A stretch of 64,000 bases of DNA from Halichondria panicea (taxonomy: Eukaryota > Porifera > Demospongiae > Suberitida > Halichondriidae), in the NCBI RefSeq assembly GCF_963675165.1, contig NC_087393.1:4513202-4577201 (forward strand). The letters are read 5' to 3'. The translations under genes and the position numbers were made by a program. Numbering within the stretch: the first letter of the stretch is position 1; each line of letters begins with the position of its first letter. Shown here piece after piece: positions 26 to 53,055 of the stretch. The notes beneath the pieces are model-generated. The model did not search any database, had not been told where the DNA came from, and saw nothing but the letters and a program-made list of their open reading frames with translations.

Positions 26-1696
26 TTAGGGTAAGCATTCGTAAGTGTTTTCAATTTCCTCTCTTTCAGTGTCAGCAGTCACACTAGTGTATACCTCATT
101 CTCTGTGGTGGGTATTGAGGGGTCATTGTCAGAACTCGACTGTCTCACTCCAACATTTGTAATAGTCACATAGTCATAATTTCCTTCATCCTGAGCAGCC
201 ACATTAACATTATCATACAACTCATCTTCTATGGTGGGTACTGAAAGATGGTTGATATTGCCATAGGCTTTATTTTGGGTCAGTTTCATTTCCACTTCTC
301 CCTCGTTATTGTCATAGTAATCGTTTTCTTGAGCCAAGTTTTGTTTAGCTTCAGTATGAATGTGATCAATTTTTTCGTAAGTATCTTCCCCAGCTGTGTC
401 ATAATCAGTGCGTTGGATAGTAGCTTTCTTATTTGTGGTTGTGGGTTTGTTAAGAGCTGAAAAATGTATAGCGTGCACATGACATACTGTTCGTAATAAT
501 ATTGCATAAATGGTTACCTATATTAACTCTAGTTGCAGCAATGTATACAATAGCCGCCTACGGACGTACCTAGTGTCACAGTGGAGGTCTTTCTCTTCCA
601 CTTGACAATAGCACAACACACAACACATACAAACAGAATGATGAGCATCACCACACCGGTAACACCTACGGCCACTCCTATACTCAGCATTTGTACTCCA
701 GCATTCATTTCTGTCATATTGGGAAGTACAGAGTTAGTTGGCTTTGGAATCAGCTTTGTTGTAGTAGCAGAAGATTCCCTATTAAGTTGCATGGAAGTGT
801 GTGTCGTAGCACTTTCCAATGATGCTGTTGAACGTTGGGTGGTTATTTCCGAGTTCTTTGCCGGGAAAGTCGATGATAGTTGAGGTGCTGAGGTTCTTGT
901 GGTTTCGATGCATTTTGTAGGCACTAATATTGTGCAGTGGTCACATATAAACAGATGCATAAGCGCTCGGTGTACTTACTTACTACTCACCCCTTGTTTA
1001 GTTACTTGTATAGCTCTTATATAGCTTACCTATTATAGCTGTAATCAAAGGAGCACTATTTGTAGAGCGGAATTGCTCTGCATTGCACAGTGAAGTTGGT
1101 TCAATTCTGTCGCTGTTAATTGAATACAACACAGATTCATTAGTGTAGAGTTCATCACGACTGAAAAGTATTCCATTGTCATCATCAGTGCTAGTGAGAT
1201 TTAATCCGACCACGTCTCCTGGCTCCACTGATATCCATTCACTCTCTGGTACTGTCACGTTGATTAGACCTCTTTGAGGATCCAGAGAGCTTAATCCCCC
1301 CAGGCACATGTCTTGTAAGTAGTTTGCTCCAATCTTGCTATAACAGTTGTCTCCTAAAGATGAGTTGACTCTCCACACCTCAAAAGAAATAGAGTAGCAG
1401 TCTCGACCACTAGCTCTTTCCACAAAGGTTCTCCACTCAGTCACCACTCCACAGCAGTTGAACCTGTAGCTAGTGATGATAGCTTGGATGGGATTATCGC
1501 GAAATCGAGGTATTCTATCTTCTGTCCTCACAAAGTTTGGTAGAGGTAGTCTTCCATTACTTGCTTGAATACACCCATATGGTGTCAATTGTCCTATATA
1601 TACGTATATTAATTATACACAAGCTTATAATTATGCCTTACCATTACCCTTTCCCTGGAATATAGTCACAAGGCTTAGTACATATAGTAGCTTCAT
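26..1696 (-). CDS. Alpha-class receptor with tyrosine-motif tail (4 exons)
   Basis: Likely a type I membrane receptor; ligand unknown. My exon model is 1642-1696 (signal peptide starting MKLLYVLSLVTIFQ), 1030-1593 (ectodomain), 570-923 (stalk and TM) and 26-456 (tail). All junctions are GT-AG in phase 1 and sum to 467 aa. The ectodomain has the family signatures FNCCGVVTEW, SFEVWR and EPGDVVGLNL plus extra cysteines. The TM is a hydrophobic run after MLSIGVAVGV, followed by KWKRK. The tail carries EDTYEKI, NKAYGNI, EDELYDNV, NYDYVTI, ENEVYTSV and ENTYECL. The start of the TM exon is uncertain; a splice at 887 also keeps frame. It is the most divergent alpha member and looks intact. Signalling through phosphotyrosine-binding proteins is inferred from the tail. 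Confidence 0.75.
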
Positions 1697-2977
1697 TTCT
1701 TGAGCACCAATTAAAATTAGCCTGCTAATCTCTAAACTTAAAGAGAATGCACATACACAACGTATAAGGTACTGCCAAGGTTTCTGTTGTCTGCTTCAAA
1801 TAAATTAAACAGGTTACATGACATGACATCATTGCAAGAACTTTAACAAGTGCTTAATGTTCAGAATGAGAGGTTTCATATACACAAAACTGTGCCTGAG
1901 GGAGCTACGTGTATTTAGATCATGTTTGTCATAAATACTGCAATCTGATTGGTTAGAGGAAATGTTCTATCCAATTTAGAAAATCATGTACTTCAATAGA
2001 AAATCATGTACTTCACTTAGAAAATCATGTAGCAAAGATTAGATAAGAACATTCAAATCTGATTGGCTAAATACTCATGGTTGCTATGATCTAAAATGCT
2101 TAGACACTGTTTAGGAAGTTTCCACATGATTTAGAAGTCCTCAGGGCTAGTAGAACCCTCACTGCGTTCGGGATACTACAACCAGCCCTTTGGGCTTCTA
2201 AATCATGTAGAAACTTCCTAAACAGTGTCTAACTATTATATAGTGTACATAATTATAGTGTAACCGTAAAATGTTTGTACATGTAGACTGCTCATCTGCA
2301 TTGAAAGCACGAGCACAAATATTGACAAGAGGATAGCGATGCAATGTGGTTTCTTTGATCTTTGCTCAAGCAAGCAATGTCTGTCGGTTGTTTACTATAC
2401 ATTGAAAGTTTGTAGTGACCTTAATTGAGACTGTCATCAGTTTTTTCTTCTACAACACTCGCTCTACACAGTTACAATGTTGTTTTAGTTTGTAACGAAA
2501 TCTGCAGCTTTCTTACCATTATTTCTTTCAAAATTAACCAATATAGAGCCACAAAGATAGCTAGTGCAGTTTCATTCTTAGCCGATAATAATTATATTCT
2601 GTGCATGCTTTCATAAATGTACTGTACGTACTATGCTTACTGCTATGGACTGCTATGAACTGTTATGGTTTTTGTTTCTGTTTATAACACGTCATCAACT
2701 AACAGCGTATACTAATGATACCCGTGTCAACTATTGTTTCTTTGATGTATCACATATATGCTTTCGTAAAGCCTTTTAATAAGTATGTAGGTTTCAGAAG
2801 GAAAGATACACAAACACAATTTTGTAACTACACCATCACCCCACCCTCTCCAGCTGACAATAACGCTGAATTCAACAGCGTATGTATAATTATGGCTGAT
2901 GCATCCACACGTACACAATGACTGTTGTCAAAATCTATATATACACACACATTTTAGTGAACTTTATACTGTCATAA
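1697..2977. other. Intergenic stretch with one repeat and no gene seen
   Basis: About 1.3 kb lies between two receptor genes. It holds the AT-rich inverted repeat described at 1917-2231. No exon with receptor signatures is visible on either strand. Short open frames at 2425-2921 show no family motif and I do not consider them coding. Confidence 0.6.
1917..2231. repeat. MITE-like repeat with fold-back (TAGACACTGTTTAGGAAG family)
   Basis: TAGACACTGTTTAGGAAG at 2101 is answered by its reverse complement ending at 2231. This forms a hairpin of about 130 bp around the inverted arms of GATTTAGAAG. The flanking part, 1917-2100, repeats AGAAAATCATGTA several times. Related copies lie at about 15234-15545, 35028-35335 and 53569-53950. 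It is a non-autonomous DNA element by structure; no coding capacity is seen. Confidence 0.75.
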
Positions 2978-5364
2978 TCATTTATCTACAGCATTCGCAC
3001 TAGACACTTGATGTGTGTATGTATATATGTACGTCTCATCTTCTGCAATGGGTTCCAAATGTTGAAGCTCTCTTGTTTTAGTGTAGGCTTTGTTTTCTGT
3101 CATTCTCATTACTGCTGGCCCTCCCATCCCCTCGTTTACATAGTAGTCAGGGCAACTCAGCCTCGGATAATCATACTCCACAATGAACGGGTTGCTAGGG
3201 TAACTGTAGATCTCACTCTGACGAGAGGTGTCAATTACTTGTCCGTATGATACGTTTTGTTCTGTTTGTGGATCTGTGCTTAAATCTATTGTGCTATATC
3301 GGTCTTGGATTGTAGTACTTGTTCTCTGATCGGATGTATTCAGGTTGACTCCTGGAATGGAATCAAAACACACACATCTAAGTGGAATCCAAACACACAC
3401 ATCTAAGTTCATATTGTTTTGCTTCCGCAATGTATACATTGTTATTGTGTAAACGGATGTAATTGTATAGCTCTTTTATGTATTCACTCCATAAGGTATT
3501 TCACCTCCTTTTGGTATGTTTCCTCTTTTCTTCATCACAATGCACACCAAAATAACCGCCAGCGTTACTAGTAGTGCTAGCACCAGCATTGCCACAGTCA
3601 TACCAACATGCAATCCTACGTTCACGTTTTGATTTGGCAAGGTAGGAAGTGCAATAGGTGTAGCTAGTAGGTTCTTTGAAGTCATGATAGGATGGTTAGA
3701 AGACTCGATAAATACTGTTAGTGGTGTGGTGTGTGTTTCCGTAGGCATTTCCCGTGTTGCAAGTAAAGTTGATAGCATGGTCTCCATAGATACTGGTGTA
3801 GACTTTATCCCTATATAATGTTGCACCTGATTATTAAGAGTGAATCATGGTCCAACTTACCTGTGTTTGTGGTAGTAGGTTTAGGGATTCTTGATGTTGA
3901 AAATGCAGTTGATATCTGGCCAAGTAAAGTTGGTAGCATGGTCTCCATAGATACTGGTGTAGACTTTATCCCTATATAATGTTGCACCTGATTATTAAGA
4001 GTGAATCATGGTCCAACTTACCTGTGTTTGTGGTAGTAGGTTTAGGGATTTTTGATGTTGAAAATGCAGTTGATATCTGGCCTAGAGTCTCCATAGATAC
4101 TGATGTAGAGCTTATTTCTAATGCTGCACCTGAAACCATTATACGTACAGTAGTACTGACAATACACATGTGTGAATGTTACAACTTACCTGTGTGTATG
4201 GTAGTAGTATAAGTAGTGGTGAGGAAAATAGAGGATGAGGTCGATGTTGGGCAGACCAGCGTGGATGTGAATGTAGAGGGGCAGTTACCGTTCACCGTAG
4301 TAGCTGTAGGTGACATTGAGATACTAGTAGTAGCATCGCGACCATTATACGTTACTATGTTGAAATTGACATCGTTTACTGCATGATGTCTGATCTAATT
4401 TGCGTATAGCGGGTAATTTTCGTGGGACAAAATTTTCGTGGTTGGAGGTCTGACCACGAATATTTTACCCACGAATGAAGCGACCTTGCCTACCTTTACC
4501 TGCAGTGCAAGTAGCAACCACGAAAATATTATCCCCACGAAATGACTAAAATAATATTGCTCAACCACGAATATTAAATTTTTGCCCCCCCAAAAGTTAC
4601 CCGCTATCAGACATGTACGGTATGCGTATGTGTACTAACTTCAGTAATTATGTATTTTGTAGTTACTGTATCGTTGCTTACCCAAGGACACTGAGATGAT
4701 TGGTCCAAGGCTTGTAGACATGCTGAGGTCCCCTGCATTGCCCACTTCCAGTAAGCACTCATTTTGTAGTTCAGAGTTACCAGTCGCATACCATAGCTCC
4801 TCAAGATTGAAGTCCCGGCTATCAAACTTCAGTCCTACATTAGTGCCGCCATCCTCCTGTTCAAGATAGTATCCAACCACATCTCCTGGTTGGAAGTCAA
4901 GTTGCTCACTGTTGGCTGGTATTTTTTCAATGTCACTGTTGGTATTAGGATTATTAGCGAAGGTAAGTAAAGGAAAAGAGTTCTCTCCAATTTTAACAAA
5001 TCTGTTGCTACTCATAGGCCTCCATATCTGGAACTTTATTGAGTACACTTCACCACCACTAGCCTCCAAAAAAGCTGACCAACCGCCGACTTTCCCACAG
5101 CAGTGGAACTTGTAACTTTTGATGATGACTTGGATCGGATTCACCTCAATTCGAGGGGCATTTCTTCCCGGGTTTTGGAATCTAGGCAAACTGTCTGCAG
5201 AGTTAGCCCTAAGGCATTCTCGAGCTTTTGACATAATATGTAAATTAGATAGTAAATACTGTGAGCAGGCTATGTGCGTACAGTTACATGTCATTCTCAC
5301 CTTTACAATAATCTACTGTGGTTATTAGCATAATTGTGACAACTGTCCTTAGTGAAATGTTCAT
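2978..5364 (-). CDS. Alpha-class receptor with three-exon stalk and tyrosine-rich tail (7 exons)
   Basis: Exons are 5301-5364 (signal, MNISLRTVVTIMLITT), 4682-5224 (ectodomain), 4190-4303, 4022-4129 and 3861-3971 (Thr/Ser/Pro stalk), 3505-3810 (stalk plus TM) and 2978-3351 (tail). All junctions are GT-AG in phase 1, summing to 539 aa. The ectodomain shows FHCCGKVGGW, SIKFQIWRP and FQPGDVVGYYL. The first stalk exon has the family NCPSTFTST motif. The TM follows VNVGLHVGMTVAML and is capped by MKKR. The tail differs from most alpha members: VSYGQV, SEIYSYP, VEYDYP, DYYVNEG, ENKAYTKT and EDETYIYTYT. Two stalk exons arose from a 161-bp tandem duplication. The donor after the TM exon (GTGAAA) is weak. 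A MITE lies in the second intron. It looks intact. Confidence 0.75.
3761..4082. repeat. 161-bp tandem duplication of a stalk exon
   Basis: Two nearly identical 161-bp units (3761-3921 and 3922-4082) contain the same acceptor, stalk codons and donor. The duplication turned one stalk exon into two in-frame exons of 37 and 36 codons. The few mismatches indicate a recent event. A weaker older copy of the same motif starts near 4087. Confidence 0.85.
4407..4606. mobile_element. MITE with TAGCGGGTAA terminal inverted repeats
   Basis: TAGCGGGTAA at 4407 is matched by TTACCCGCTA ending at 4606, and the interior has repeated inverted CCACGAATATT arms. It sits in the intron between the ectodomain and stalk exons of the receptor at 2978-5364. 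A related element is at 58844-59035; elements at 43201 and 55151 share the GTATAGCGGGTA end. Confidence 0.75.
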
Positions 5365-6167
5365 TCTTGAAGAGAGCCAGATGGTTCAAGATTAGCTATA
5401 ATTATAGCTGGTGTTTATAGCATATGCTTTATATATGGTCATTGATTCAGAGCATTATTCATCAGCTGACAAAGTGATGAATTGTGTACATGGCATATTA
5501 GAGTAAATGAGAGACCGTTAATAATGGATGCCTTCCTTATTATAGTAAACATGCTACAAGTTAATTGTTATAGCCATCGCGTGAGCACTGGCAGCCAATG
5601 CATTAATTGCATACCATTCTTTTAGCTTCGTGCAGAATTATCTATAAAGCGTGCCGTTGAATATTTACATGCACACAACATTGGTGATTGATAGTTTGAT
5701 TGATAGTAACATGATTACTAAATAATTAAGCCGTGTGGAAAGTATAATGTATATTCACGGTTTAGTGTAAGTACGTTGTACTGACTTTTACATTGCTAAT
5801 TTAATATCTAACATACATAATCATAAGCACTCATGCAGTGCGCTAGTGTTAGCGGTCACACTAGTGTGTGCCTCATTCTCTGTGGTGGGTATTGAGGGAT
5901 CATGCTTTTGTTATGTATTAAACATTTAATGTGATGGTAAGCCATGCATGAAATATGTACGTAATACCGTATTTATACTTATAATAAGTACATTACTGTA
6001 TAACAATACACTGTATGAGATAATACCCAACACACAGCACATTCTCTAAGGATGCTAGACCTATAGTAAATGTATTGCCTATAACATAATCTTCAGTCTC
6101 AGTTTTAGCAGTCACACATTACTAGATCAGAGTCCCATGCATGTGTCTCTGTGCATATGCAGCTCCA
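5365..6167. other. Intergenic stretch with a relic of a receptor tail
   Basis: Positions about 5845-5905 match, on the minus strand, the tail segment that encodes ENEAYTSV in other genes, here with substitutions and no open exon around it. It reads as a relic of a lost receptor copy. The remainder is AT-rich and I see nothing else in it. Confidence 0.5.
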
Positions 6168-9153
6168 TCATATACATGCTTCGCTCAATACATCAATGCA
6201 TTGGTCATCATTTGCTACCGTGACAACCAATCCGCTATCTGACATAACATGGTTTGAAACACTTGATTCTTGTATTTGTGAAATTTCACCAGAGTTGCCT
6301 AATCTTCCATAAGCTTCGTTCTTGCTAATTACTGGATCTGGCCCTGCTTTGTTCAATGTACCAATGCAGTGGTCATCATTTGCTACCGTGACAACCAATC
6401 CGGCCCTATCTGATATACGGAACTTTAATCCTTGTGTTTGTGAAATCTCACTAGAGTTGCCCAATCTTCCATAAGCTTCATTCTCAGTGCCAATTATTAG
6501 ATCTAATCTCTGTGGTGGATGTGGAGGGGGCGTTGTCAGAGCTTGGCTGTCTAACTCTCGTCTCATTTCTTGTGGGTGACCATTTGTATTAATGTCACCC
6601 GGATCAGTATCGATGTAGTCGTACATAGGTTCTGTATTATGTTCTTCAATTCTCTCTGTGTGATAAGAAACATGGAGTATAATAGCTGTATACATACTTG
6701 TTGCATTTTGAGTGGGCAGATCAAATGAAACACTGTGCCAATATTAGCCTCGATTCAAGGCCGATTAAAATACGGCCTGGTACTTATTGCAGGGGTGATA
6801 GTGCGCATGCGCTTCAAATTACCCAGAATATGGATAATCGTACCACGAACGTAAAACCTTAGTAAATTATCCGGAAATTAGTCCGTTTACTAAGAATATG
6901 TTCCGTAATACTTATCTCAAAGACTGAGTTCTGTGAAGCTGTGGCTTATGCCGTCTATTGCGTTGGTCTAGAAGGCTTAAACACTAGTTTTAAGACAGAA
7001 GAGGCTCTCATCTACGTCTAGGATGGTCCTATAGCCGGGTTGTCTTTGCAAGTGGCAGTTTGAGGCACCATACACTTCTCATATAGCCTGTACAGATCCA
7101 AGGTAAGACATCCTGACCATACAACCGTCATAGAGGTAGATGAGAACCTCTTCTGGCTTCAGACTAGTGTGAAACAACGCAATAGAGAGCTAAGCTGATG
7201 TTACAAAGATAGAAAATAGATGAAGGAAGAAAAAGGGGATTCCCCAGATTCTGGTGAATAAACTAACGCATGCGCACTATCACCCCTGCAATAGGTACCA
7301 GGCCGTATTTTAATCGGCCTTGAATCGAGGCTATGCCAATATCTGCCATATGGCACAGGTCAAACGGTGAACTGTGCCATACTATGGCATGGGTGAAGTT
7401 ACCTAAAGCCCACCCTCCATCTAGATACTGGCATAGTATGGCTGAAGTTACCTAAAGCCGACCCTCCACCCAGTAACCTGAAACGGTCCCTTTTATAGTA
7501 TAACACTGTCAACAGATTCAGTGGTAGGCAGAAAACGTTTTTCATGCGGCTGGTGCATTCCACAGCCGACTACAAATAGTTGCAAACTATAGTTGTCCTA
7601 TAAAAGGAGTGATGTGTACACGGAAAGGAATGCAACAAGGAATGCAACAAATCAGTTGTTACACAGCTATAGATCTACTGCATACTAATTGCACTAAGTA
7701 CATGGGATTTAAGCAAAGAGACTTCTGAATCATCATTGTTGACTCATGTATATACGTCATACACACTTACCCATGCAGCCATGCCTTTTTATGCATATCA
7801 AGGTAGAAATAGATATGATTATGGCTACTACAACCACCAGTTGAAACTACACCAGCAATAACAAACACAGTCGTATCGGCAGTAGACATGGTGTTGTTGG
7901 TGGGTAATGTGGTCTGAGTAGGTTGAATCTGTGTCGTGGTAGTAGCAGGTTCAGCAGTAGTACCAGGTGCAGCAGTAGTAGTAGTAACTATTGTACTTGG
8001 AGCCTGCTGAACCACTCCCGTTCGCTGATTGGCCCAGTAGGTCATCCGTGTTTCAACTACAGCAAATCTGCAGTGTGTAAACAATGTGACATAATAAATA
8101 ACAGATAACAGTAGCTACTGAAAGACTAAAACACACTATTGAAGGTGTTTTAGGTGTGGGGGGACTATAACCATATCGCAGGTTATTTTGAGGGACTAAA
8201 TGTTCGCGAAATGCTCAAACTAAACATTTTGCGGATTATGTTTTCGAGGATAGAGGTTCAAACGACCACACCCCTACAGTAGAGAAGTTCCGGAAGTAAA
8301 CCAATTTTGAGGTTCGAGGTCAAACCTTGAAATTTAGTGCCTCAAAAATAACCAGCTGTACGGTACTATGCATATTTACTCAAGCGTAATAGGTTCCAAA
8401 CTCACCCAAATCTGATATCTCCAGTGTTACCCATAGGAGCTGTCCAAGTGAAATAAATGATGTCTTTATCAGCAGGTGAGTTGTGGGTGACTCCATCCTG
8501 AAAGGAAAAGTGGTTAGAGTGCAAATACAAACCAACATTTTGGTCTCAGTTTTGAACCAAGGATCATAATAAAATATGCAACTTAGCTTATTAGACCAAA
8601 GCTCCTACTGATATAAGCTAGGCCATGCATCAACGGTTAGCTAAACTGCAGATCTGCTTACCGTGTTAATAGGACAGCTGCTGAGTCTGCTTTGGTCTGC
8701 CAATGGCCCTGTTGGAGCGAAGACTCCAGCACGAGTGGTATCATCGTTCATCAGCCTTGCTTGCACGAAAAATCCTCTGAAAGTGCCTCCAACAGTTGCG
8801 TTAGCAATCGACACTACAAAAAAGCAAAAGTGGAAGCTTTTTCAGATACCTAACAAGAGCCTTCAGGTAGAATTGATTAAGCAGAACATGCAGCGCTGCA
8901 CCATACTGCAATGCAATATTATAATTCTCAACGTACAGGTGTAGGTTCTTCCAAGGTAGAATGTAAAAGAGTTGTCACTAGCATTATAGAAGGGCATGAG
9001 ACTAATAGCGTAGGGGACATCACTGGCCTGTGGCTGGGCTAAATGAATGGGGGAGAGGCTATCACAGGCACCAGCAGGTGCACCACTTGAATAACCCTCC
9101 ACAAGCAGTCCTATGGAGGACATCACCAAGGAGACACCGATAAGCAGCTTCAT
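6168..9153 (-). CDS. Reeler-domain receptor with beta-class TM and tail; TM exon frameshifted
   Basis: Exons are 8937-9153 (signal MKLLIGVSLVMSS and start of Reeler), 8662-8813, 8406-8497, 7771-8067 (end of Reeler, Thr-rich stalk, TM) and 6168-6655 (tail). The Reeler assignment rests on SSGAPAGACDSLSPIH, VGGTFRGFFVQAR, SCPIN, IYFTWTAP and FAVVETRMTYW, in family order. The stalk/TM is almost the same as in the beta receptors (TTLPTNNTMSTADTTVFV) but lacks 5 bp present in them near 7832. This shifts frame inside the TM helix. Lengths sum to a multiple of three only if 5 bp are added. The tail has MYDYIDTDPGD and two 56-residue repeats, each starting NEAYGRLGNS. As written, the product would stop at 7767 without a proper TM, so this is either a recent pseudogene, a soluble form or a sequence error. 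Confidence 0.7.
6180..6515. repeat. 168-bp tandem duplication inside the Reeler receptor tail
   Basis: Two in-frame copies, offset by 168 bp (56 codons), each contain NEAYGRLGNS and GLVVTVANDD. The unit duplicates one tyrosine module of the cytoplasmic tail. Divergence between copies is modest. Confidence 0.75.
6747..7331. mobile_element. Fold-back DNA transposon (GCCTCGATTCAAGG ends, TA target site)
   Basis: The outer arms GCCTCGATTCAAGGCCG... and ...CGGCCTTGAATCGAGGC are inverted over about 75 bp. Inner arms around AGAAGAGGCTCTCATCTAC also pair, so the whole 585 bp is nearly palindromic. TA flanks both ends, as for mariner-like MITEs. It lies in the intron before the tail exon of the Reeler receptor. 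Short deletion derivatives occur near 13909, 28026 and 33688. Confidence 0.8.
8181..8354. mobile_element. Intronic MITE-like inverted repeat
   Basis: GGTTATTTTGAGG at 8181 is answered by CCTCAAAAATAACC ending at 8354, with a second inner pair. It lies in the third intron of the Reeler receptor. No coding content is seen. Confidence 0.55.
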
Positions 9154-9853: not shown

Positions 9854-10531
9854 TCGAGATGATTGGTCCAAGGTTTGTAGACATGCTGAGGTCCCCTGCA
9901 TTGCTCTTCCAACAAGCACTCATTTTGTAGGTCAGAGTTACCAGTCGTATACCATAGCTCTTCAACATTGAAGTTACTATCAAACAATTAACAGACCTCC
10001 GTTATTGTCACCAGCCTGCTCGAGATTGTAACCAACCACATCTCCTGGTTGGAAGTCAAGTTAATGGCTTTGGCTATGAGACTAGCATCAGCCAGTGTAG
10101 GAAATGAGTTCTCTCCGATTTTAACAAATCTGTTATCCCCCATAGACCTCCATATCTGGAACTTTATTGAGTACACCTCAGTATGAGCACCACCACCAGC
10201 GTCTACATACGCAGCCTAACCAGCAACTCTCCCATAGCAGTATATATAGAACTCGTAGCTTTTAATAATGGCTTGGATCGGATTCACAGCCATTTGAGGG
10301 GCACGGTTTCCTGGGTCTCCAAAGCTATATAGGCAGACTGTCTGCTCCATCAGAGTTAGCACGGACACAATCCTGAGCTGTATACAATCATAAACAAAGC
10401 TATGAAATTATCTGTAGATAGCTAGTATGACACTGACACTGACATTGTCATTGTGCACCTCTGTACATGCACTTACCTGTAACATGACTAGCAATTAGTA
10501 CCAGTGCTAGTGAAATAGTGATTAGTGTCAT
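9854..10531 (-). pseudogene. Alpha-class receptor pseudogene (signal exon and ectodomain only)
   Basis: The signal exon 10477-10531 is intact (MTLITISLALVLIASHVT, with donor). The ectodomain that follows is broken. The Trp codon of the usual GGWAAYV motif is TAG (near 10216), a TATATA insertion interrupts the CCG region, and several small deletions shift frame before the end near 9854. No stalk, TM or tail follows, because the next unit downstream is the unrelated Reeler gene. It is the left-block counterpart of the pseudogene at 29633-30294. Confidence 0.8.
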
Positions 10532-10719
10532 TCCTATTGTATTAGATCTAGGGTGCATGCGTAGATCTATATAGACGTCTATATGTGTTTCCTGGTGATC
10601 AAACTTGATTGTGGTCATATTGTTGTATGCTTGAAGGGTTTCTCTTATTTGAAACCAAAAATATCCACATACACAACTAACACGCATGTACGAGCAAGCA
10701 TATACAAAGTTCGGTTTCT

Positions 10720-11099: not shown

Positions 11100-11265
11100 T
11101 TACCCAGTGGAACATCAAGGTGCCACTTCGGCTGTAGTTTGAGCTGCTACTGACTGAGCAGCACACAAGACACTATTATTATGCAGTACAGGATTGTGTT
11201 TATTTCAACTTACCTGATAAGCTGAAAACAACTAGTATTAGCATAAACATGTTAATTCTTCCCAT
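11100..11265 (-). pseudogene. Beta-class receptor relic (signal exon plus start of ectodomain)
   Basis: The exon at 11214-11265 encodes MGRINMFMLILVVFSLS with a good donor, as in the beta receptor at 17013-18551. The next exon begins AQTTAEVAP and then meets a stop near 11115. The rest of the ectodomain is missing. The same relic occurs at about 30890-31029. Confidence 0.8.
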
Positions 11266-11798: not shown

Positions 11799-14700
11799 TT
11801 ACACAACATAGTCATAATATTCTTCAGCCTCGGTGTTAGCAGTGACACTAGTGTATGCCTCATTCTCTGTGGTGGGTATTGAGGGGCCATTGTCAGAACT
11901 CGACTGTCTTACTCCAACGTAGGCTTCATTTCTTATCATTGCCACTTCTGCTGTGACATATATAAATAGTATACATGTATATTTATAGTGCATATAGGTT
12001 TGAACATACCTCTTTGTCGTTTGTTTTCCCTCTTCTTTGTCACCACACAAGCCAAAAGCATCACTGCAGTCAGTATGACCAACAGCACTAGTACTGCAAC
12101 AGACACTGCGATTCCAGCAAACAGTCCCACGTTCACTTCTTGAGGTTGTGTTGTAGTAACTGCTGGTGTGACTTGAGGAGAGTTCATGGGAGAACTGCTT
12201 GGTTGTGGTAGACCAGTGGTTGTTATAGGTGCTGACACAGAGCTAGACTCAGCTTGAAGTCCGAAGTCACTACTAGAGGGTAATATTGTCATTCCAATAT
12301 TGTCTAGAGTAGCACTGCTTGGTTGTGGTAGACCAATGGTGGTTATAGGTGCTGACACAGAGCTAGACTCGGCTTGAAGTCCGAAGTCACTACTAGAGGG
12401 CAGTATTGTCTCAGAGGATATTCCAATCTTGCCTTGAGTAGCACTTACTGCTATGGTTGTTGGTTCTGTAATTATTGTGTACATGACGAAAATACATAAT
12501 ATTATACCTTCAGTCTGTTGTCTATTATGTAGTTTGTATAAGGTAACAGGGCGTGTGCATGTCCTTTCTATTACATGGTCGTTTTATGCAATATATATAT
12601 ACAAGCAACTAGCTCGCCCTCATACTTGTGCCTGTCTATTTCAGTCATTATGCTATACACACAGAGGAGGTTCGACACGGTCAAAAGGTCATTAATGAAT
12701 TAATCACTTGCTCTATGTTTCTAATGGAGATTCAACTTGATGCTGATTCATCGATGTACCCCAGATCTCTCATCATTTTCTCTTGATTCTTCAAACAAAA
12801 TAATAACAATCAATCCAATGTACCCCTCAGGTACATCAGTAGGAAGCGAGAAATTCTAGCTTAACCTTTTGAACTCTACACCACCCCAATTTTCACCAAC
12901 GCTTTGGAAACGCAAGAAAAATACAAGCATTGGCAGCCTTCAAAGACGTCGCTTAGACTATAATTATAAGCTTAGTTCTTTTACATCAAAAAAAGGTATT
13001 AATGTGCCTTCAAACGATTAAAGTACAGTTTGCGTTATATGCGTGTTAAGCATTGAATCCAAAGGTCAGGAATGCAATACGCTAGTGTTGTTATCCTTGA
13101 CCTTTTGACCTTGTCGAACCTTCTCTGTATTACACATGCATAACTCACCATTAACAGTTAATGGGGTCACAGTGGCCACATAGGTGGGGTTTAGGACCAT
13201 GGTCGAGGTGGAGGGACAGTCCACAGTGGTTGCTATAGTGTACATTAATAATTGAATTAAAACTATGCATGCAGCAATAACCTATCAGTTGGATATGTAT
13301 ACCATGCTGAAAGTAATGCTTGCATGGTTCTCGATGTTATGTCTACGTAGTTCGGTTACTTGTTGCAGCCTTTTCATAAAAGTGCATAGCAAAACTTATC
13401 CATGAAGTGTTGCTACTCTACTTAGTAGTTAGCTCTGTACTTAGAACGCTATAGCTATATATACAGACAAAATCAAATTGCACTGGAAGCCTTAACATCC
13501 TAGTATGTATATATAACACCGACAAAATCAATCACTACCGCCCGCATCAGTTTATTCTTCTCATTATTTCTACTACGCATGCATGTGGCACAAAATAGTG
13601 TGCAAATATGACATAATGACAAAAGCTGCCCACCCGCATGCAATTAGAAAAACTTCTGTACGAGAAACCAGAGTATCCTTGGAGTGGCCTTATATAGGTA
13701 GGAGGGAACAGCTGCAAGTTGACATATCAATACCATGACAAGAGGCCCAAAAATGTGTTACCATGGCTATGACATCATCACATTGCGGAACTGACTTCTA
13801 CCTTAGCATGCCTAGCCTCGTTCCCAGGCCTTCCTTTTTCTTGCTGCATCATAGCATCATAGATACCATATAGCGAGACGATATAAATGTTTGTGGTTTT
13901 CGCTGATTAAGCATTAGCCTTGATTTATTTTAATAGGCCTTGAATCGAGGCTTATTAAGCATGTACCGCAAACATTTATAATCCAGGATGACTTTATTAC
14001 CATGCGTGCATGCCGCTGCAAAATGTTTTTCCGCGAATATTTATACCCTCGAGCTCGAATAATACGGTATCTCAACATAAATAGAAGGCAGCAAAAACAA
14101 AAAGACGAAATGAGGCAGCAAAGAAAGACATGAGCGTATTTTTTCTATATAGTTCTTATGAACGATTGTGACAAAGAACAGAAAAGGAAGAGCCTGTGTA
14201 GAGGCATGCATACAGTAGAATCTCGCTATACCGGTATTCCGGTTCTCTGAAGTATGCCGCCTCGGTATACGGGCCATTTGGTACGAATTAATTGCTAGCT
14301 AGATGTTACTGCACAAAACTTGCCCTGAAATGCGGCCCCTTTGATGTGATCTGCCAGTATGCTATAAGACGAGAACTGACATCTATAGAATTCATGAAAA
14401 ACTCCAATGGGGGCCAGGTGTATATTTTCCATTTTTACTTGAGTGTTCTGACAAAATAACATAGATTGATACTCACTAATTGATATTGAGATGATTGGTC
14501 CAAGGCTTGCAGACATGCTGAGGTCCCCTGCATTGCCCACTTCCAGTGAGTTGTCATTTTGTAGGCCAGAGTTACCAGTCGCATACCATAGCTCTTCAGA
14601 AGTGAACCCAGCATCAAACTGCAGACCTCCATTAGTGCCACCATCCTGCTGGAGATAATATCCAACCACATCTCCTGGTTGGAAGTCAAGTTGTTGGCTG

Positions 14701-34500: not shown

Positions 34501-34976
34501 AAGTGGTGTTGCAGCAATGTAGCTGTTAGTAAGAGTAGCAGGGAAAAAGGAATTCTCTCCAATTTTTATGTAACTTGCACTATTCTCACTCGTTGGTCTC
34601 CATATCTGGAACTTTATGGAGTATGCAGTAGTATGACTACCACCACCAGGCTCCACATACGCAGCCCACGCTCCAACTTTCCCACAGCAGTGGAACTCGT
34701 AGCTTTTAATGATGACTTGTATCGGATTCACACGAACTATAGAGTTCCAATTATTTGGGTCTAAGAAGCTAGGCAGACTGTCCGCTCCATCAGAGTTACC
34801 ACGGACACAATCCTGAGCTGTACAACAATCAAAACAAAGCTATGAAATTATCTCAGTACTATAGCTAGTATACACTATAATACATGACACTGTCATCATG
34901 CACCTCTGTACATGCACTTACCTGTAACGTGTCTAGCAATTAGTACCAGTGCTAATGAAATAGTGATTAGTGCCAT
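31554..34976 (-). CDS. Alpha-class receptor with short tail, twin of 11799-15179
   Basis: Exons are 34922-34976 (signal MALITISLALVLIARHVT), 34275-34817 (ectodomain), 32911-32994 (stalk), 31765-32220 (stalk repeats and TM) and 31554-31705 (tail). Lengths equal those of the twin and sum to 429 aa in frame. Tail and TM exons are almost the same as the twin (for example TILLSSS for TILPSSS, and VVKKKREN for VVTKKREN). The ectodomain differs at a few surface-like sites (GAWAAYVEPGGGSHTT for GGWAAYVEPGGNSHTN). It looks intact, so the duplication gave two probably working genes. Confidence 0.8.
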
Positions 34977-38759: not shown

Positions 38760-41540
38760 TTAAGGTTTAACATATGCATAAGCATCTTCAGGCTCAGTGT
38801 TAGCAGTCACACTAGTGTATGCCTCATTCTCTGTGGTGGGTATTGAGGGATCATTGTCAGAACTCGACTGTCTTACTCCAACGTAGGCTTCGTTTCTTAT
38901 CATTGGCACTTCTGTTGTCACACCCAACCCCTTGACGACGTTATCATCATTTGCTATGACACTATATTCTGCAGTGGCAACATTACCATAGGCCAGGTTC
39001 TGAGTTGTGGAGGGATTGTACGTTTCAGCCAAAGAATTCACGACGTAATCATAGTCAGCGATCTGAGTTGCTTCTGTAAACTTTCCGTACGCCTCATTCT
39101 CATTGGTGGATGGTTCAGTGTTAGCATCCATTCTGATAGTTTGAAGAGTATCACTCTGTTCATTGATGGTCCTGTAGTCAGTCAAACTCAAATCTGCAAA
39201 GGAAACCTGTAATTACTTCTTTTTCCCACGCACAAAAAGTAAATATGTGTATAACACGACTATATGTACATGTACATGCATAAGCTCACTTTTAAACATA
39301 CCTCCTTGTCCTTTGTTTTCTCTTTTCTTTTTCATCGCACAAACTAAAAGCATCACTGCAGTTAGTATGACCAACAGCACGAGTACTGCAACAGACACTG
39401 CGATTCCAGCAAACAGTCCCACGTTCACTTCTTGAGGTTGTGTTGTAGCAGCTGCTGGTGTGACTTGAGGAGAGTTCATGGGAGAACTACTTGGTTGTGG
39501 TAGACCAGTGGTGGTTATAGGTGCTGACACAGAGCTAGACTCGGCTTCACGTCCAAAGTTACTACTTGAGGGTAATATTGTTTGAGTAGGGAAAGAGAGT
39601 GCAGAAATGGGGAGAGTGGAGACAAGGGGTGTGGAGATGGGGAGCATACTTGACGGGAGAAGCGTAAAGGAACTTGTCTGAGCATTCACTACACAAAAAA
39701 ACACAGCCATAATTGTAGTTTTGCATATGACTATAATTTTATAGGACATTAATTTTAACCACTCCTTCATTCACTGTGGAACTATAGAGGAGGAAACAAC
39801 AACACACTGCCCTGAACGTTATACTCAATGGTACATAAGCTTTTTAACAAAGAATCGAAAATTTAAATTTGACAAAGTTATGACAACTTTATGAAGATCA
39901 AACCCAACACACATGGATTTTAGTTCCACTAACCATTATTTAGCTGAGTAGAAGAGACCTGCAGTGCGAGGGTTGGGGATGGACTGCTTGGAGTGCTTAC
40001 TGTTAAAGAGAGGGCATAAAATAATGTAATCTTGTATGAACGAATGACATAAGCAGATGATGTCACTCACTAACTGTCAGGATGATAAGTGGAGCAAGGT
40101 TAGTCATGGAACCGAAATCATCAGCCGAATATATACAAGGTGGGTCGAGTGCAAGACATGGAGTGGAATCGAACCAAACAGTTTCTCCATTATAAGAATT
40201 GTCTCCAGCAAACTGGATACCATCATCATCAGTTCTACTACTCTCCAGATAGAACCCGACCACATCTCCTGGTTGGACCTCAATCCTCTCACTGTCTAGT
40301 GGTACCCCAGTCACTATTCCTCTGTCAGCAGTGTTAGGATCAGCTAGTGGAATGGGGAAGAATTCATTTAAACCAACAATAGTGTATTGGCCATCAGGAG
40401 GAGAGTTTGGTCTCCACACTTGGAATGTAGCGGAATATGACTGATTAGCATATTGTATATTGCCACTACCCTCCACAAATGCTCTCCACTCAGTGATTTG
40501 TCCGTAACAATTGAACTTGTAGCTAGGTATAATGACCTGTACTGGTGCCACTTCAAACCGTGGCTCTCCCCCACCACTAGGTCTGACAAAGTTTGGTAAA
40601 GATCTGGAGCCATCCGTTGCCATCAGACAGTCTGCAAAACAGGCCACTGGTTAACATAGACACACTATTGTAATGAGAAGGCACTTCTATAGTAATCAAT
40701 ATTGAAGCACTAATACACACATGCACTGTCTAGCTATGGTTGAAGATGACCCCAGGCTAAAATCGAAGATAAACTCACCATCTACAACAGCTGGAGTACC
40801 AGGTCCAGGTCCAGGTCCAGTGGTGATGGGGGTGGGAGTGGGGCAGAATATGGTCGAGGTGAAGGTAGAGGGGCAGTTATAATTAACAGCGGTTGCTATA
40901 ATGAGGAATGTATCTATAAAAGCAGTAACATTTGATTACACATATAGTATTTCTATGTTTGTGCAAGGTTATAATTATGTATAAATTTATTATACTTGTA
41001 CAGGAAACACACTATATGGCTGTTACAAAGTGCATGCACATATAGATTGATACTCACTAAGTGATATCGAGATGATTGGTCCAAGGCTTGTAGAAAAGCT
41101 GAGGTCGCCTGCATTGCCCACTTCCAGTAAGCACTTATTTTGTAGGTCAGAGTTACCAGTCGCATACCATAGCTCTTCAGAAGTGAAGCCACTATCAAAC
41201 TGCACACCTCCGTTTTGGTTTCTGTTGTCTTCGAGATAATATCCAACCACATCTCCTGGTTGGAAGTCAATCTGCTCACTGGGAAGTGGTGTTGCAGCAA
41301 TGTAGCTGTCAGTTAGAGTAGCAGGGAAAAAGGAATTCTCTCCAATTTTTATGTAAATTGCACTACTCTCACTCGTTGGTCTCCATATCTGGAACTTTAT
41401 GGAGTATGCAGTAGTATGACCACCACCACCAGGCTCCACATACGCAGCCCAACCACCAACTTTCCCACAGCAGTGAAACTCATAGCTTTTAATGATGACT
41501 TGTATCGGATTCACACCAACTATAGAGCCCCAATTACCTG
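38760..41540 (-). CDS. Two-ectodomain alpha receptor, first exon missing
   Basis: Open exons are 41058 to about 41540 (ectodomain 1), 40779-40895 (linker, NCPSTFTSTIFCPTPTP), 40071-40631 (ectodomain 2, starts DCLMATDGSRSLPNFVRP), 39934-39999 (stalk), 39302-39688 (stalk and TM) and 38760-39193 (tail). All are phase 1 and in frame. Ectodomain 2 (FNCYGQITEWRAFV, FQVWRPNSP, VQPGDVVGFYL, CLALDPPC) is closer to that of the receptor at 26-1696 than to ectodomain 1. The long tail has DLSLTDY, NEAYGKF, YDYV, NLAYGNV, AEYSVI, NEAYVGV, NEAYTSV and AYAYV. Upstream of GNWGSIVGVNP the family sequence stops at about 41540. No signal exon is seen, so it is 5'-truncated or uses an unseen first exon. Confidence 0.7.
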
Positions 41541-43507: not shown

Positions 43508-45080
43508 TTAGCAGTCATATATGTTATAGCTGAATGTATTTGTGTGGAAGTGCCGTATGCTTTGTTTGCAGCCACTCGAATGTTTGCTGCATCCTCTCAT
43601 TCCTTTGTTCATGTGGTCATCACTTGTTGTGGCAACTTCCCCATAGGCTGGGTTCCCATTTGTTAAGATGTCACCTGGATCAGTATCAATGTAGTCGTAC
43701 ATAAGTTCTGTATTATGTTCTTCAATTCTCACTGTGTGATAGGAAACATGAAGTGTGTATATATACATGTAGCTGCATGTATGTATACAAGTTTCTAGTC
43801 AATTAAACAATAACCACCATACCAATAGTAGGAAGCTATATAATTTACATACTGTATTATACTATTGCAATTAGTGCATGCACATAATTATGGGAAGGAA
43901 GATTGAATCACAATAATTGTGGTATGCAACTCATGTATATTATACGTCATGCGATTGCCCACTTACCCACACTTTTATCCGTGATGGAACAACGCCGAGT
44001 TCAGTGTGGCACTTTTTGATGCATATCAAGGTAGAAATAGATATAACTATGGCTACTACAAGCAGCCCACTTGAAACTACACTAGCAGTAACAAACACAG
44101 TCGTATCGGCAGTAGACATGGTGTTGTTGGTGGGTAATGTGGTTTAATCTGGATTCTGCACACGATAACGGAAGATTTTGTAGAGTGCATGTTCTGTTAG
44201 AAACAGTGCCTAAGGTTGCAGCTGTAATTTCTGTATAGGATATAGGAATCAGTTACTATTATCATATGTGTTACCTTGGTGCAGAGTGAGTCTCTGCAGT
44301 CTATATTGAATTTATCGTACTGAATGACACGTGTAAACTACGTAGGATATATTTCATACTGTATACAACTCACCGTACTGCAAAATAATCAGCGGGAGAG
44401 AGGATTGTGTTTGAACTTCTTTGTCACATGTATACAGCTCACAGGGATCACTTGACGACCTTTTGATAATTAATAGTTCTGATGTTGAGTTATTGTATGT
44501 TATGCAACGCTACACCAAACCCTGGCTCAAGTCCTTGTGATGTTGAACTGTACCAGCCCAGTAGGTTGGAAATAAATTCGTTCATGCTACAGAAACTTGA
44601 TTAGTGAGCACTGCGAATGTGATATTGGAATTATCAGGTGTCACTGTTTCAGTTCGAGGGCAATAAGTTAACAGGTTAGACCCAACTAGATCTGAATTTT
44701 CCTTGACTTGACCTCCAAACTTAGATATGCAAGTTTTGCGTAAGTTTTAGACCAGCGTTGTAACCTTGGATAGTGACTGCAGCACTCCATTCAGTGATTT
44801 GTCCATAGCACTCAAACTTCAGCCCTGGTGTGAGAACTTGTATTCCATCTGGAGTTCTGAAATCCGGAGCTATCTAAGTGAGATCTGCACTTGGTTGGAG
44901 AGAGCCAACAGCTGGAAACCCAGTGGAACATTGAGGAACCACTTTAGCTGTAGTTTGAGCTGCTACTGGAGCAGCACATGACACTAAGCACAATACATTA
45001 CATTTATTTATTTCGATAAGCTGAAAATAAATTGAAGTTGCATAATCATGTTCATCTTGACACTCCTGTAGCTATAGCCT
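43508..45080 (-). pseudogene. Beta-class receptor pseudogene
   Basis: It is the right-copy counterpart of 21093-23185. The tail (43508-43730) keeps MYDYIDTDPGD and NPAYGEV but shifts frame after NKGMR. The stalk lost 17 bp near 44146. The donor region after the TM is changed, with an insertion reading KCHTELGV. The ectodomain (44386-44955) has many small deletions and in-frame stops. The signal exon (near 45015-45055) is degraded. Confidence 0.85.
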
Positions 45081-45290: not shown

Positions 45291-45304
45291 CTAGCTATAA
45301 TTAT

Positions 45305-47713: not shown

Positions 47714-49608
47714 TTAAACATAGTCATAAGTTTCTTCAAGCTCAGTCACGTTAGAAGTCACACTAGTGTATGCCTCATTCTCTGTGGTGGGTATTGAGGG
47801 GTCATTGTCAGAACTCGACTGTCTTACTCCAACGTAGGCTTCATTTCTTATCATTGCCATTTCCAACCCCTTGACAATGTTATCATCAGTTGCTATGACA
47901 CTATATTCTGCGGTTGCAAAATCACCATAGGCCTGGTTCTGAGTTGTGGAGGGCTCGTTAACTAGTGGATTTATAGCATAATCATAGTGAGCAATCTGAG
48001 TTTCTTCTGTTAACTTTCCGTACACCTCATTCTCATTGGTGTATGGTTTAGTGTTAGGATCCATCCTGATGATTTGATAAGTATCATTCCGTTCATTGAT
48101 GGTCCTGTAGTCAGTCAAACTCAAATCTGCAATGTGTATGGAGTCAGTTATTTTTAACCTGGCTCACAAAAAGTATTTCTGTACACTATTAAATAAGTAT
48201 TCATGTAGCGTACAAGTCATATACCTCCTTGTGAGTTTTTTTTCTTATTACTTTTCACCACACAAACCAAAAGTATCACTGCAGTCAGTATGACCAACAG
48301 CACTAGTACTGCAACAGACACTGCGATTCCAGCAAACAGTCCCACGTTCACTTCTTGAGGTTGTGTTGTAGTAGCTGCTGGTGTGACTTGAGGAGAGTTC
48401 ATGGGAGAACTGCTTGGTTGTGGTAGACCAGTGGTGGTTATAGGTGCTGACACAGAGCTAGACTCAGCTTGACGTCCGAAGTCACTACTATACTGTATAG
48501 AGGGCAGTATTGTCTCAGAGGATATTCCAATCTTGTCTTGAGTAGCACTTACTGCTATGGTTGTTGGTCCTGTATTATACATGTATGCAGGTGATTCACA
48601 TTCAGTGACGAAATACAGCAAACTATGTATGATTATCATCTTTTGTTGTAAGTATGTAGTTAGTGCATGTATCACTATACACACGCCATTAGCTCACTAT
48701 CAATAGTTGTTTGGGTCACAGTGGCCACAGGAGTGGGGAACATGGTCGAGGTGAATGTGGAGGGACAGTTATTCACAGAAGTTGCTATAGTGACATTGCG
48801 CATATTGAAAAACCAACATAATCTGTCAAACTTATACACATGCAGTTTCTGCATGAACAAAAAAAAACAAATACTGTTCCATAATCGCATATTGATACTC
48901 ACTAATTGATATCGAGATGATTGGTCCAAGGTTTGTAGACATGCTGAGGTCCCCTGCATTGCCCACTTCCAACAAGTTATCATTTTGTAGGTTAGAGTTA
49001 CCAGTCGCATACCATAGCTCTTCAGAAGTGAACCCATCATCAAACTGCACACCTCCGTCTTGTCTGTCGTTGTCTTGGAGATAATAGCCAACCACATCTC
49101 CTGGTTGGAAATCAATCTGCTCGCTGGGAAGTGGTGTTGCAGCAATGTAGCTGTCAGTTAGAGTAGCAGGGGAAAAGGCATTCTCTCCAATTTTCTCGTA
49201 TTGTGGACTGTTATCACCCAGTGGTCTCCATATCTGAAACTTTATTGAGTATGCAGTTGTGTGAAGTTTACCTCCAGGCTGTACGTACACAGCCCAACCA
49301 CCAACTTTCCCACAGCAGTGGAACTCGTAGCTTTTAATGATGACTTGGATTGGATTCACACCAATTAGAGAGTTAGTATTACGTGGGTCCACAAAGCTAG
49401 GCAGACTGTCGGCTCCACCAGAGTTAGGGCGAACACATTCTTGAGCTATATAGATCAATGAACAAGGTATGACATTATCTCAGTACTATACTAGATCTAG
49501 CATACACTTAATATATACATACCTCTGTATATACATGCATGTCTTTATACCTGTAATGTGACTAACAGTCAGTACCAGTGCTAAAGATTTAATAGTGATC
49601 AGTGCCAT
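47714..49608 (-). CDS. Alpha-class receptor with full-length tail (reference member, 6 exons)
   Basis: Exons are 49551-49608 (signal MALITIKSLALVLTVSHIT), 48903-49445 (ectodomain), 48698-48784 (stalk, NCPSTFTSTMFPTPVATVT), 48225-48569 (stalk and TM) and 47714-48126 (tail). All are GT-AG, phase 1, totalling 481 aa. The ectodomain (about 20-200) has GADSLPSFVDP, FHCCGKVGGWAVYV, KFQIWRPLG, FQPGDVVGYYL and LGPIISISIS. The TM (about 304-333) is VGLFAGIAVSVAVLVLLVIL plus TAVILLVCVV. The tail (about 345-481) has 12 tyrosines: DYRTI, TYQII, ENEVYGKL, HYDYA, NQAYGDF, AEYSVI, NEAYVGV, NEAYTSV and TYDYV. The repeated NxxYxx[VLF] pattern fits SH2/PTB docking. No lesion is seen. An RPF1 relic lies 190 bp upstream. 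Confidence 0.85.
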
Positions 49609-50450: not shown

Positions 50451-50459
50451 GAAGAGTAT

Positions 50460-50830: not shown

Positions 50831-53055
50831 CTAACATACATAGTCATAAATTTCTTCAACCTCAGTGTCAGCAGTCACACTAGTGTATACCTCATTCTCT
50901 GTGGTGGGTATTGAGGGGTCATTGTCAGAACTCGACTGTCTTATTTCAACGTAGGCTTCATTTCTTATCATTGCCACTTCTGCTGTCCCACTGAACCCAT
51001 TGACAATGTTATCATCAGTTGCTATGACACTATATTCTGTGGTGGCAACGTCACCATAGGCCAGGTTCTGAGTTATGGAGGGATCGTACGTTTCAGCCAA
51101 AGAATTGAAGACGTAATCGCACTCGTCAATCGTTTCTTCTGTAAACTTTCCGTATGCCTCGTTCTCTTTAATGGATGGTTCACGATCAATGTTATTATCT
51201 ATCCTGTTGGTTTGAAGACTAGCACTGTGTTCATTAACGGTACTGTAGTCAGTCAAACTCAAATCTGCAAAGGATAAGAAACTGTAGTAAGGCTTCTTTA
51301 TTTGCACATCACAAAAATGAATGTTAGTACAATAATTATCAACCGTATGTGAGTTCATTAAATTGTTGTGATATACAATTTTGAGCCTAAACCCTACCTC
51401 TCTGTCTTCTATTTTCTCTCTTCTTTTTCACCACACAAACCAAAAGCACCACTGCAGTTAGTATCACCAACAGCACGAGTACTGCAACAGCCACTGCGAT
51501 TCCAGCAAACAGTCCCATGTTCACTTCTTGAGGAGCATTGGTGGTTAGAATTATAGGTGCTGACACAGAGCTAGACTCAGCTTGACGCCCAAACTCGCTA
51601 CTAGCTATAGAGGGTAGTATTGTTTCAGTAAGGACAAGGAGAGTGGCAACTGGCATGGCAACAAGGGACGTGGAGATGAGGGGGTTGGCAGCAGGGGGTG
51701 TGGAGATGGGGGGCATACTTGACGAGAGAAATGCAAATGAACTTGTCTGAGCATTCACTGCATGCACAAAAAACACACAACCATAATAGTATAGCTTTGC
51801 ATCAGACTATAGAAGATTGAACCATAATTATACTCATTTACTGGAGGGGAGACAAAAACACACTGCCCCCATGAACAATACATGCATGTATACTTACTTT
51901 AATCATGGTACAAAACACGGTACATGAATCTGTACGATGTGTGTATGCCCGCCAAACATAATGTAGCACTGACTGCATGAGCGATCTAATAATATACATG
52001 CAGTATATCATTATAGTTGTCCCACCAACCATTATTTGACAGAGTAGAGGAGACCTGCAACGGAGCACCAGGTCCAATGGGAGTGGGGATGGGACAGAAC
52101 ATAGTTCGGGTGAAAGAGATGAGGCAGTTCTCAATATTAGTGCACATGGTTGCTATAGTGAGGGAAGTATAAAAAAGACATGCATCGTATATAGATGGGT
52201 AAAAGCATGCAGTAAGTTTGATCCCACATCTAAGCAATGGGTATACATGTACAAATACATTAAATACTGCACATTGCTCACTAAGTGATATCGAGATAAT
52301 TGGTCCAAGGCTTGCAGATATGCTGAGGTCCCTTCCATTGCCCACTTCCAGTAAGCACTCATTTTGTAGGTCAGAGTTACCATGCAGTCGCATACCATAG
52401 CTCTTCAACATTGAAGCTACTATTATACTGCAAACCTCCATTAGTGCCACCATCCTGCTCGAGATAGTAGCCGACCACATCTCCTTGTAGAAAATCAAGT
52501 TGATCATAGAAGCTTGGTGTTGCAGCAATGTAGCTGTCAGTTAGATTAGCAGGGGAAAAGGCATTCTCTCCAATTTTTATGTAACTTGCACTATTCTCAC
52601 TCGTTGGTCTCCATATCTGGAACTTTATTGAGTATGCATTAGTATGACCATTGTCACCAGGCTCCACATACGCAGCCCACGCTCCAACTTTCCCACAGCA
52701 GTGGAACTCGTAGCTTTTGATGATGACTTGGATTGGATTCACACCAATTTCAGAGACAATATTTCCTGGGTCCATAAAGCTAGGCAGACTGTCCGCTCCA
52801 TCAGAGTTAGTACGGACACATTCTTGAGCTGTATAAAATAAAGCTACTCAATATACTAGACAAAATTAATGTTAGCATTAGGTGAATCGAAATACACAAC
52901 ATGCATGCATGCATGTAGGGCTAGGGACGATCACAATAACTATACCAACAATATACCATATACGCCTACACTGTGTACCTCTGCATGCACATGCACTTAC
53001 CTGTAATGTGACTAATAGTCACTATCAGTACTAAAGAAATTGTGATTAGTGCCAT
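50831..53055 (-). CDS. Alpha-class receptor with full tail; 4-bp insertion in ectodomain
   Basis: Exons are 53001-53055 (signal MALITISLVLIVTISHIT), 52282-52828 (ectodomain), 52030-52152 (stalk), 51398-51757 (stalk and TM) and 50831-51264 (tail). Compared with siblings the ectodomain has 4 extra bases near 52383 (ACCATGCAGTCG for ACCAGTCG), so the frame ends at ELWYATAW and a stop. The exons otherwise sum to a multiple of three. The TM (VGLFAGIAV-like, here MGLFAGIAVAVAVLVLLVIL) and tail (NEAYGKF, NLAYGDV, TEYSVI, NEAYVEI, NEVYTSV, IYDYV) are open. Possibilities are a very recent pseudogene, a secreted truncated form, or a sequence error. It is the receptor nearest to RPF1. Confidence 0.7.

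Follow-up and report, generated by a model that had tools for sequence, protein, structure and literature searches.

The Alr receptors of Hydractinia are clustered single-pass proteins with a stalk and a tyrosine-bearing tail. The paired receptors of vertebrates (KIR and LILR) evolve by tandem birth and death, share stalk, transmembrane (TM) and tail modules, and occur in long- and short-tailed forms. To our knowledge, the membrane receptors by which sponges distinguish self and non-self, or tell a friendly microbe from a hostile one, have not been settled at the molecular level. In sponge aggregation factors, the secreted proteoglycan core contains Calx-beta and Wreath domains. These factors are introduced as a cell-recognition system of sponges in PMC8380372. 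We analyzed a stretch of 64,000 nucleotides of the Halichondria panicea genome (contig NC_087393.1, positions 4,513,202 to 4,577,201; hereafter the window) and found a tandem cluster of receptor genes on its minus strand. The cluster probably encodes single-pass type I recognition receptors that signal through phosphotyrosine and evolve by birth and death with interchangeable phase-1 exons.

What can be read from the DNA comprises the anatomy and modularity of these genes, an excess of a tyrosine motif in their tails, copies in all states of decay, and a Suberites-associated homologue that appears to have the same layout. The cluster resembles the Alr receptors in its clustered, stalked, single-pass proteins with tyrosine-bearing tails, but the ectodomains have no immunoglobulin (Ig) match in Pfam and the tails are not enriched in immunoreceptor tyrosine-based inhibitory or activation motifs (ITIM or ITAM). 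It shares with KIR and LILR the tandem birth and death, the common stalk, TM and tail modules, and the presence of long and short tails, and differs from them in having no Ig match and no ITIM excess; furthermore, all tails read retain tyrosines, and on visual inspection the TM stretches read showed no Asp, Glu, Lys or Arg. An earlier note on this DNA had likened the pattern to vertebrate paired receptors, and the likeness holds for the layout but not for ITIM/ITAM tails, the counts of which are near chance. In contrast to the aggregation factors, which are extracellular proteoglycans, the cluster proteins have a TM and could at most be their partners; Calx-beta was not among the Pfam matches of the scanned ectodomains, and Wreath was not searched by name.

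Architecture of the receptor cluster

Seed proteins representing each module were used to search the open stretches in all six frames at a cut-off of E<=0.01, and all matches to the ectodomain, TM, tail, linker, signal-peptide and Reeler seeds lay on the minus strand, from 53055 to 38. We recognized 16 receptor units between 26 and 53055 (Table 1), namely six complete genes, four near-complete units that have their parts in order with at least one apparent defect each (G1, G4, G9 and the Reeler unit), and six broken units. Strictly intact units are six of the 16 and the remaining 10 bear at least one defect; single defects may be assembly errors. The one-strand cluster with decayed copies described in the earlier note is thus confirmed, and the tandem growth and copy decay proposed there are supported, with units in all states of decay. 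Its count of at least nine receptor genes stands if the near-complete units are included, whereas the strictly complete genes number six.

The complete genes (G2, G6, G10B, G11, G13 and G14) splice to proteins of 353-481 amino acids (aa) with no internal stop, in the order of a signal peptide, an ectodomain of ~180 aa, a Ser/Thr/Pro stalk, one TM and a tail with a recurrent tyrosine motif, which is the general layout of phosphotyrosine-docking single-pass receptors. The models are built on sequence-predicted junctions, and the signal peptides and TMs were assigned from hydropathy and visual inspection. All of the 22 modelled introns in these genes are GT-AG and phase 1, a uniformity that is partly by construction because the splice-site scan took phase-1 sites only; the frames are open throughout. 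Signal peptides were sought as an ATG and a hydrophobic stretch with a phase-1 donor. No signal-peptide exon was found for G4, of which the first (A) ectodomain is without about its first 20 codons, but this negative is weak since the same scan overlooked the signal exons of G2 and G9. The window is eukaryotic in style, with a GC content of ~0.40 over most of its length and a CpG observed/expected ratio of 0.42-0.55 in 8-kb blocks, and its coding parts are short exons; a scan of the window for RNA families (Rfam) and tRNAs gave no match.

Two families of signal peptides were found, MALITISL... preceding type A ectodomains and MGRINMF... preceding type B. The TM and tail exons form two sets, of which TM1/tail1 go with A or A plus C ectodomains, and TM2/tail2 with B and, once, after a Reeler domain. 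G14 has a C ectodomain and a different TM, and the last part of its tail is common to tail1 (69-75% DNA identity). These pairings are exon exchange at the level of architecture, and the modular architecture with exchanged ectodomains suspected beforehand is recovered in the spliced models and the order of modules. On visual inspection, the TM segments of TM1, G13, G14 and the Suberites-associated homologue show a GxxxG spacing, which would accord with clustering or dimerisation of the receptors.

The Reeler domain (PF02014) was detected in one unit only, at 32 bits against a cut-off of 21 on manually joined exon pieces; the second piece by itself scored 20.4 bits, just under the cut-off. The TM2 of this unit is split over two frames near 7837, and its tail carries two NEAYGRL motifs. 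Judging from order and strand, the Reeler, TM2 and tail2 pieces appear to be one gene. The likeness of the cluster to Reeler-domain proteins is confined to this unit; the other ectodomain-bearing units have instead a family without a name.

Table 1. Receptor units and stray exons of the cluster, in window positions.
Unit	Positions	Strand	Composition and state	Basis
G14	26..1696	-	Complete, 467 aa; signal peptide, C-type ectodomain, a distinct stalk/TM, tyrosine tail	Three GT-AG phase-1 introns, no stops
G13	2978..5364	-	Complete, 466 aa; A-type ectodomain, linker, stalk/TM, divergent tail	Spliced model, four introns
Orphan	5830..5904	-	Tail-exon scrap	phmmer E=1.2e-7
Reeler unit	6168..9153	-	Reeler ectodomain, then TM2/tail2 modules; frameshift in TM	Reeler PF02014
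G12A	9855..10558	-	Broken; signal peptide, broken A ectodomain	Module and signal-peptide searches
Orphan	11214..11265	-	Signal-peptide exon, B-type	Signal-peptide scan
G11	11799..15179	-	Complete, 429 aa, short tail; near copy of G6	Spliced model
G10B	17013..18551	-	Complete, 353 aa; signal peptide MGRINMF, B ectodomain, TM2, tail2	Spliced model
Broken unit	18930..20327	-	Split A ectodomain, linker, split C ectodomain	Module search
G9	21093..23185	-	B ectodomain, TM2 and tail2 all open; donor of the signal-peptide exon not in phase with ectodomain exon	
G7, G8	28399..30294	-	Broken; G7 (28399-29637): signal peptide, split A; G8 (29642-30294): B signal exon remnant, part B, A	Module and signal-peptide searches
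Orphan	30978..31029	-	Signal-peptide exon, B-type	Signal-peptide scan
G6	31554..34976	-	Complete, 429 aa; signal peptide, A ectodomain, linker, stalk/TM1, short tail1	Spliced model
G5	36678..38246	-	Broken; B ectodomain in several frames, TM2, tail2	Module and signal-peptide searches
G4	38760..41537	-	Open; two ectodomains (A without start, linker, C), stalk/TM1, long tail1	
G3	43508..45071	-	Broken; B ectodomain in several frames, TM2, tail2	Module search
G2	47714..49608	-	Complete, 481 aa; signal peptide, A ectodomain, linker, stalk/TM1, long tail1	Spliced model
G1	50831..53055	-	All five exon types; frame break near 52385 in A ectodomain	Module search

Ectodomain family, tyrosine tails and a homologue outside Halichondria

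The ectodomains of types A, B and C belong to a single homologous family, which aligns over ~180 profile positions. The 11 aligned ectodomains, including that of the Suberites-associated homologue, share 16 invariant columns, and the invariant residues are F, C, G, W, WR, N and P-x-D-V-x-G. The family had been said to be one that could not be named, and the database searches gave it no name either: Pfam gave no match above cut-off for any of the 11 members (best E 0.12), NCBIfam none for the four ectodomains scanned, and the PDB sequences none. No Ig family was among the Pfam matches up to E=1 or 10, albeit a strongly diverged Ig fold could escape such a search. The V-set or I-set Ig-like ectodomain of Alr-type receptors was not recovered from the PDB sequences either, which gave no hit, and neither of two Foldseek lists was headed by Ig folds.

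Two AlphaFold models of the ectodomain were almost all beta, which agrees with the beta-rich appearance noted previously, at low to middling confidence (predicted local distance difference test, pLDDT, 56 and 61; predicted template modelling score, pTM, 0.59 and 0.66). Foldseek returned nothing below E=0.01 for either model (best E in the second list, 0.011), and the fold assignment is weak. By their titles, 23 of the 50 rows in the second list (the model with a pLDDT of 61) were galactose-binding-like or discoidin-type (APC10, CBM, chitobiase C-terminal, discoidin, PHR, SUN, IFT25 or lectin-like) with query TM-scores of <=0.45; this list also had TNF-type entries in six rows and phage capsids in several, and the first list had few galactose-binding-like rows. 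As a lead only, the ectodomain may be a jelly-roll and possibly a glycan-binding domain.

The tails were examined in a set of 10, made up of nine of the 12 tails located in the window (all but those of G3, G5 and G11) and that of the Suberites-associated homologue, with expectations taken from 2000 shuffles; the related tails are non-independent samples. N-x-x-Y-x-x-[VLIF] occurred 25 times against 1.18 expected, a count reached in none of the 2000 shuffles, and 12 times against 0.6 in five mutually divergent tails. The tails with many motifs of this form that the earlier note had pointed out are thus far above chance. Individual tails hold one to five copies, with five in the long tail1 of G2. 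N-x-[AV]-Y, with 23 occurrences for an expected 0.94, and Y-[DA]-Y, with 12 for an expected 0.78, were enriched as well. TxYxx[VI] was weakly enriched in the full set (four against 1.15, 57 of the 2000 shuffles), and in the five divergent tails it showed no enrichment (one against 0.66). An identity with ITIM ([ILVS]xYxx[ILV]) was rejected at three observed against 3.05 expected, and one with ITAM (paired Yxx[LI]) at one against 0.3, a count reached in 513 of the 2000 shuffles. Asn at -3 recalls the NPxY sites bound by phosphotyrosine-binding (PTB) domains, and a hydrophobic residue at +3 recalls Src homology 2 (SH2) sites. By this resemblance, the tail tyrosines may be docking sites for PTB or SH2 domains. 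Two Pfam matches below the cut-off, EphA2_TM (E=0.006, a TM/stalk piece) and Stevor (E=0.0006, stalk, TM and tail of the Suberites-associated homologue), were dismissed as resemblances between TM or low-complexity sequences.

Relatives were sought outside Halichondria. Two degenerate-pattern scans of viral contigs gave none. A pattern scan of prokaryote genomes gave 64 matches, of which one, in Nitrosopumilus sp. Nsub, was a relative; among 250 genomes of the family to which that genome belongs, the pattern matched only Nitrosopumilus sp. Nsub. The homologue matched a profile made from the window alone with E=7.5e-36, has no stops, and was the sole match in its genome. Its ectodomain is 20-39% identical to the window copies. 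The exon borders look phase 1 on visual inspection, and a Thr/Pro stalk is present together with a TM and a tail that contains NEAYISV, NSAYIAT and YDYV. The first ~17.5 kb of the record, NZ_LQMW01000008.1 (filed as Nitrosopumilus), show eukaryotic features, with a GC content of 0.35-0.44 and a RING frame adjoining a TRAF/MATH protein, and are followed by prokaryote-type genes at lower GC. The record looks chimeric, with a eukaryotic stretch misassembled into a symbiont genome. The host of the Nsub assembly is given as Suberites sp. in PMC5361782, in which the contamination of the assembly is put near 0%. We regard the eukaryotic stretch as probably DNA of the host sponge. A further tyrosine-bearing open frame (SSVYENRG) adjoins the homologue at 9811-10146 of the same record and is perhaps a second tail.

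Duplication, exon exchange and selection

Over the compared exons, introns and flanks, G6 and G11 are 94-100% identical; 20 kb of the cluster, including other units, separates them. In global alignments of G1, G2, G4 and G6, identity is 82-94% for ectodomain, TM and tail exons, 53-74% for linker exons, and 45-60% for the later introns that were compared. Because exon identity is high against that of the later introns, the exons of these genes are constrained or homogenised. These figures also bear on the view of the locus as a dying cluster with few expressed genes, in which the number of units is inflated by assembly errors or uncollapsed haplotypes. The defects in 10 of the 16 units and the near identity of the G6 and G11 blocks would fit this view. 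Nevertheless, six models are intact, the two blocks are separated by 20 kb and other units, and the exons stand out against the introns, and we consider a dying cluster quite improbable.

In blastn comparisons of G2 with G6 and of G1 with G6, the matches end within ~20 bases of the modelled exon borders, except for a G2/G6 match that extends through the intron after the signal peptide. The G4/G6 matches stop at the ectodomain and TM exons but continue past the stop codon, and those of G1/G2, of G2/G4 and among the B genes cross introns. Between G2 and G6, synonymous differences amount to 27.3 of 101 sites in the ectodomain and to 1 of 69 sites in the TM exon (p=3.3e-6); G2/G11 shows the same contrast, G11 being a near copy of G6. 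The simplest reading is exon-limited conversion or exon transfer. As synonymous divergence in this pair is far lower in the TM exon than in the ectodomain, the modules of a receptor can apparently have separate histories.

The ratio of nonsynonymous to synonymous divergence (dN/dS) was 0.35-0.66 for type A exons over 15 pairs (six open copies, including one of a broken unit), 0.92 for the type B pair, and 0.17 for the type C pair, in which dS is saturated. For TM1 it was 0.46-0.62 in seven of the 10 pairs; the values of 4.6 for G2/G6 and 4.9 for G2/G11 arise from almost no synonymous change, and G6/G11 has no synonymous change at all. Positive selection in the G2/G6 TM exon was rejected, the ungapped core being not significant (Fisher p 0.13). 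The tail1 pairs gave 0.29-2.27 on few changes, and the TM2 pairs 0.33-1.23. Altogether, selection appears to be constraint or relaxed constraint, with no clear positive selection.

Several results, the weak fold assignment among them, weigh against recognition receptors with exchangeable exons. The other four of the six gene pairs showed no significant contrast between ectodomain and TM exons (p 0.09 to 0.83). Tree conflict between exons was rejected: topology tests on four copies for the A, TM and tail exons found no significant conflict, the A exon narrowly rejecting one of three topologies (approximately unbiased test, p-AU 0.0485) and the TM and tail exons rejecting none. Finally, dN/dS of the ectodomain exon was below 1 in all of the 17 paralogue pairs, and the paralogue values seem to fall short of the strong diversification ideally expected of a recognition surface.

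The same results bear on two further explanations. One is that neutral tandem duplication expanded a set of ordinary receptors for adhesion or matrix, with collagen, glycans or aggregation factor as their ligands. This is consistent with the mostly purifying or relaxed selection, the numerous broken copies, and the Reeler unit, which suggests an extracellular-matrix context. On the other hand, the multi-motif tyrosine tails kept in the intact copies and in the distant homologue argue for signalling, as do the two separate TM/tail modules, although adhesion receptors can signal too; we regard this explanation as rather doubtful, if the least so of the alternatives. Slightly less plausible, and in our view unlikely, is an allorecognition locus, in which the receptors would be highly polymorphic determinants of self and non-self like Hydractinia Alr, perhaps with homophilic ectodomains. 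A tandem multigene cluster with single TMs, stalks, tyrosine tails and decayed copies, as well as the exon-specific homogenisation in one gene pair, would accord with such a locus, but the absence of Ig families from the ectodomain matches in Pfam and the dN/dS below 1 speak against it.

Repeats and neighbouring genes were also found in the window. A 175-bp inverted repeat (99% complementary) occupies 2068-2242 and 53558-53732, 51 kb apart, and is probably a mobile element, because weaker copies lie elsewhere in the window (~15.2-15.6, 16.3 and 35.0-35.3 kb). A dispersed repeat, perhaps a transposon, has three strong copies (42351-42650, 46574-46873 and 56196-56495), and tandem repeats lie at 25815-26702 (37-base unit) and 59787-60425 (30-base unit). 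The high end of the cluster is adjoined by a Brix-domain exon on the minus strand (55584-56066), which we take to be RPF1-like. A plus-strand zinc-finger gene (Pfam zinc_ribbon_6 at 62535-62930) is presumably RCHY1-like; a 473-bp stretch beside it (60908-61374) recurs with 96% identity at 49974-50444, between G1 and G2.

Proposed function in sponge recognition

For the phosphotyrosine-signalling recognition receptors that we favour, the most economical course of events can be outlined. The beta-rich ectodomain on its mucin-like stalk would bind a surface ligand (a glycan, a microbe or another cell), and the ligand would cluster or dimerise the stalked receptor. A Src-type kinase could then phosphorylate the tyrosines of N-x-[AV]-Y-x-x-phi, and SH2 or PTB adaptors would dock on the phosphorylated tail, the variation of one to five motifs per tail tuning the strength of the signal. 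Judging from the evolutionary pattern alone, such receptors would most likely serve to recognize microbes or non-self cells, and their repertoire would be renewed as copies duplicate and decay. The titles and abstract openings listed in open-access searches aimed at such recognition systems describe no such family, a weak negative for a family without a searchable name.

We also entertain, as an improbable extension, a sponge histocompatibility or immune-receptor locus that is independent of the Ig superfamily, with an unnamed, non-Ig beta-sandwich ectodomain and its own N-x-[AV]-Y-x-x-phi phosphotyrosine code, and that diversifies by phase-1 exon shuffling and exon-restricted conversion. The cluster, compact and combining an ectodomain that has no name with a clear tyrosine code, offers concrete genes for following up recognition in sponges, and it would show that a tandem design of tyrosine receptors does not require Ig domains.

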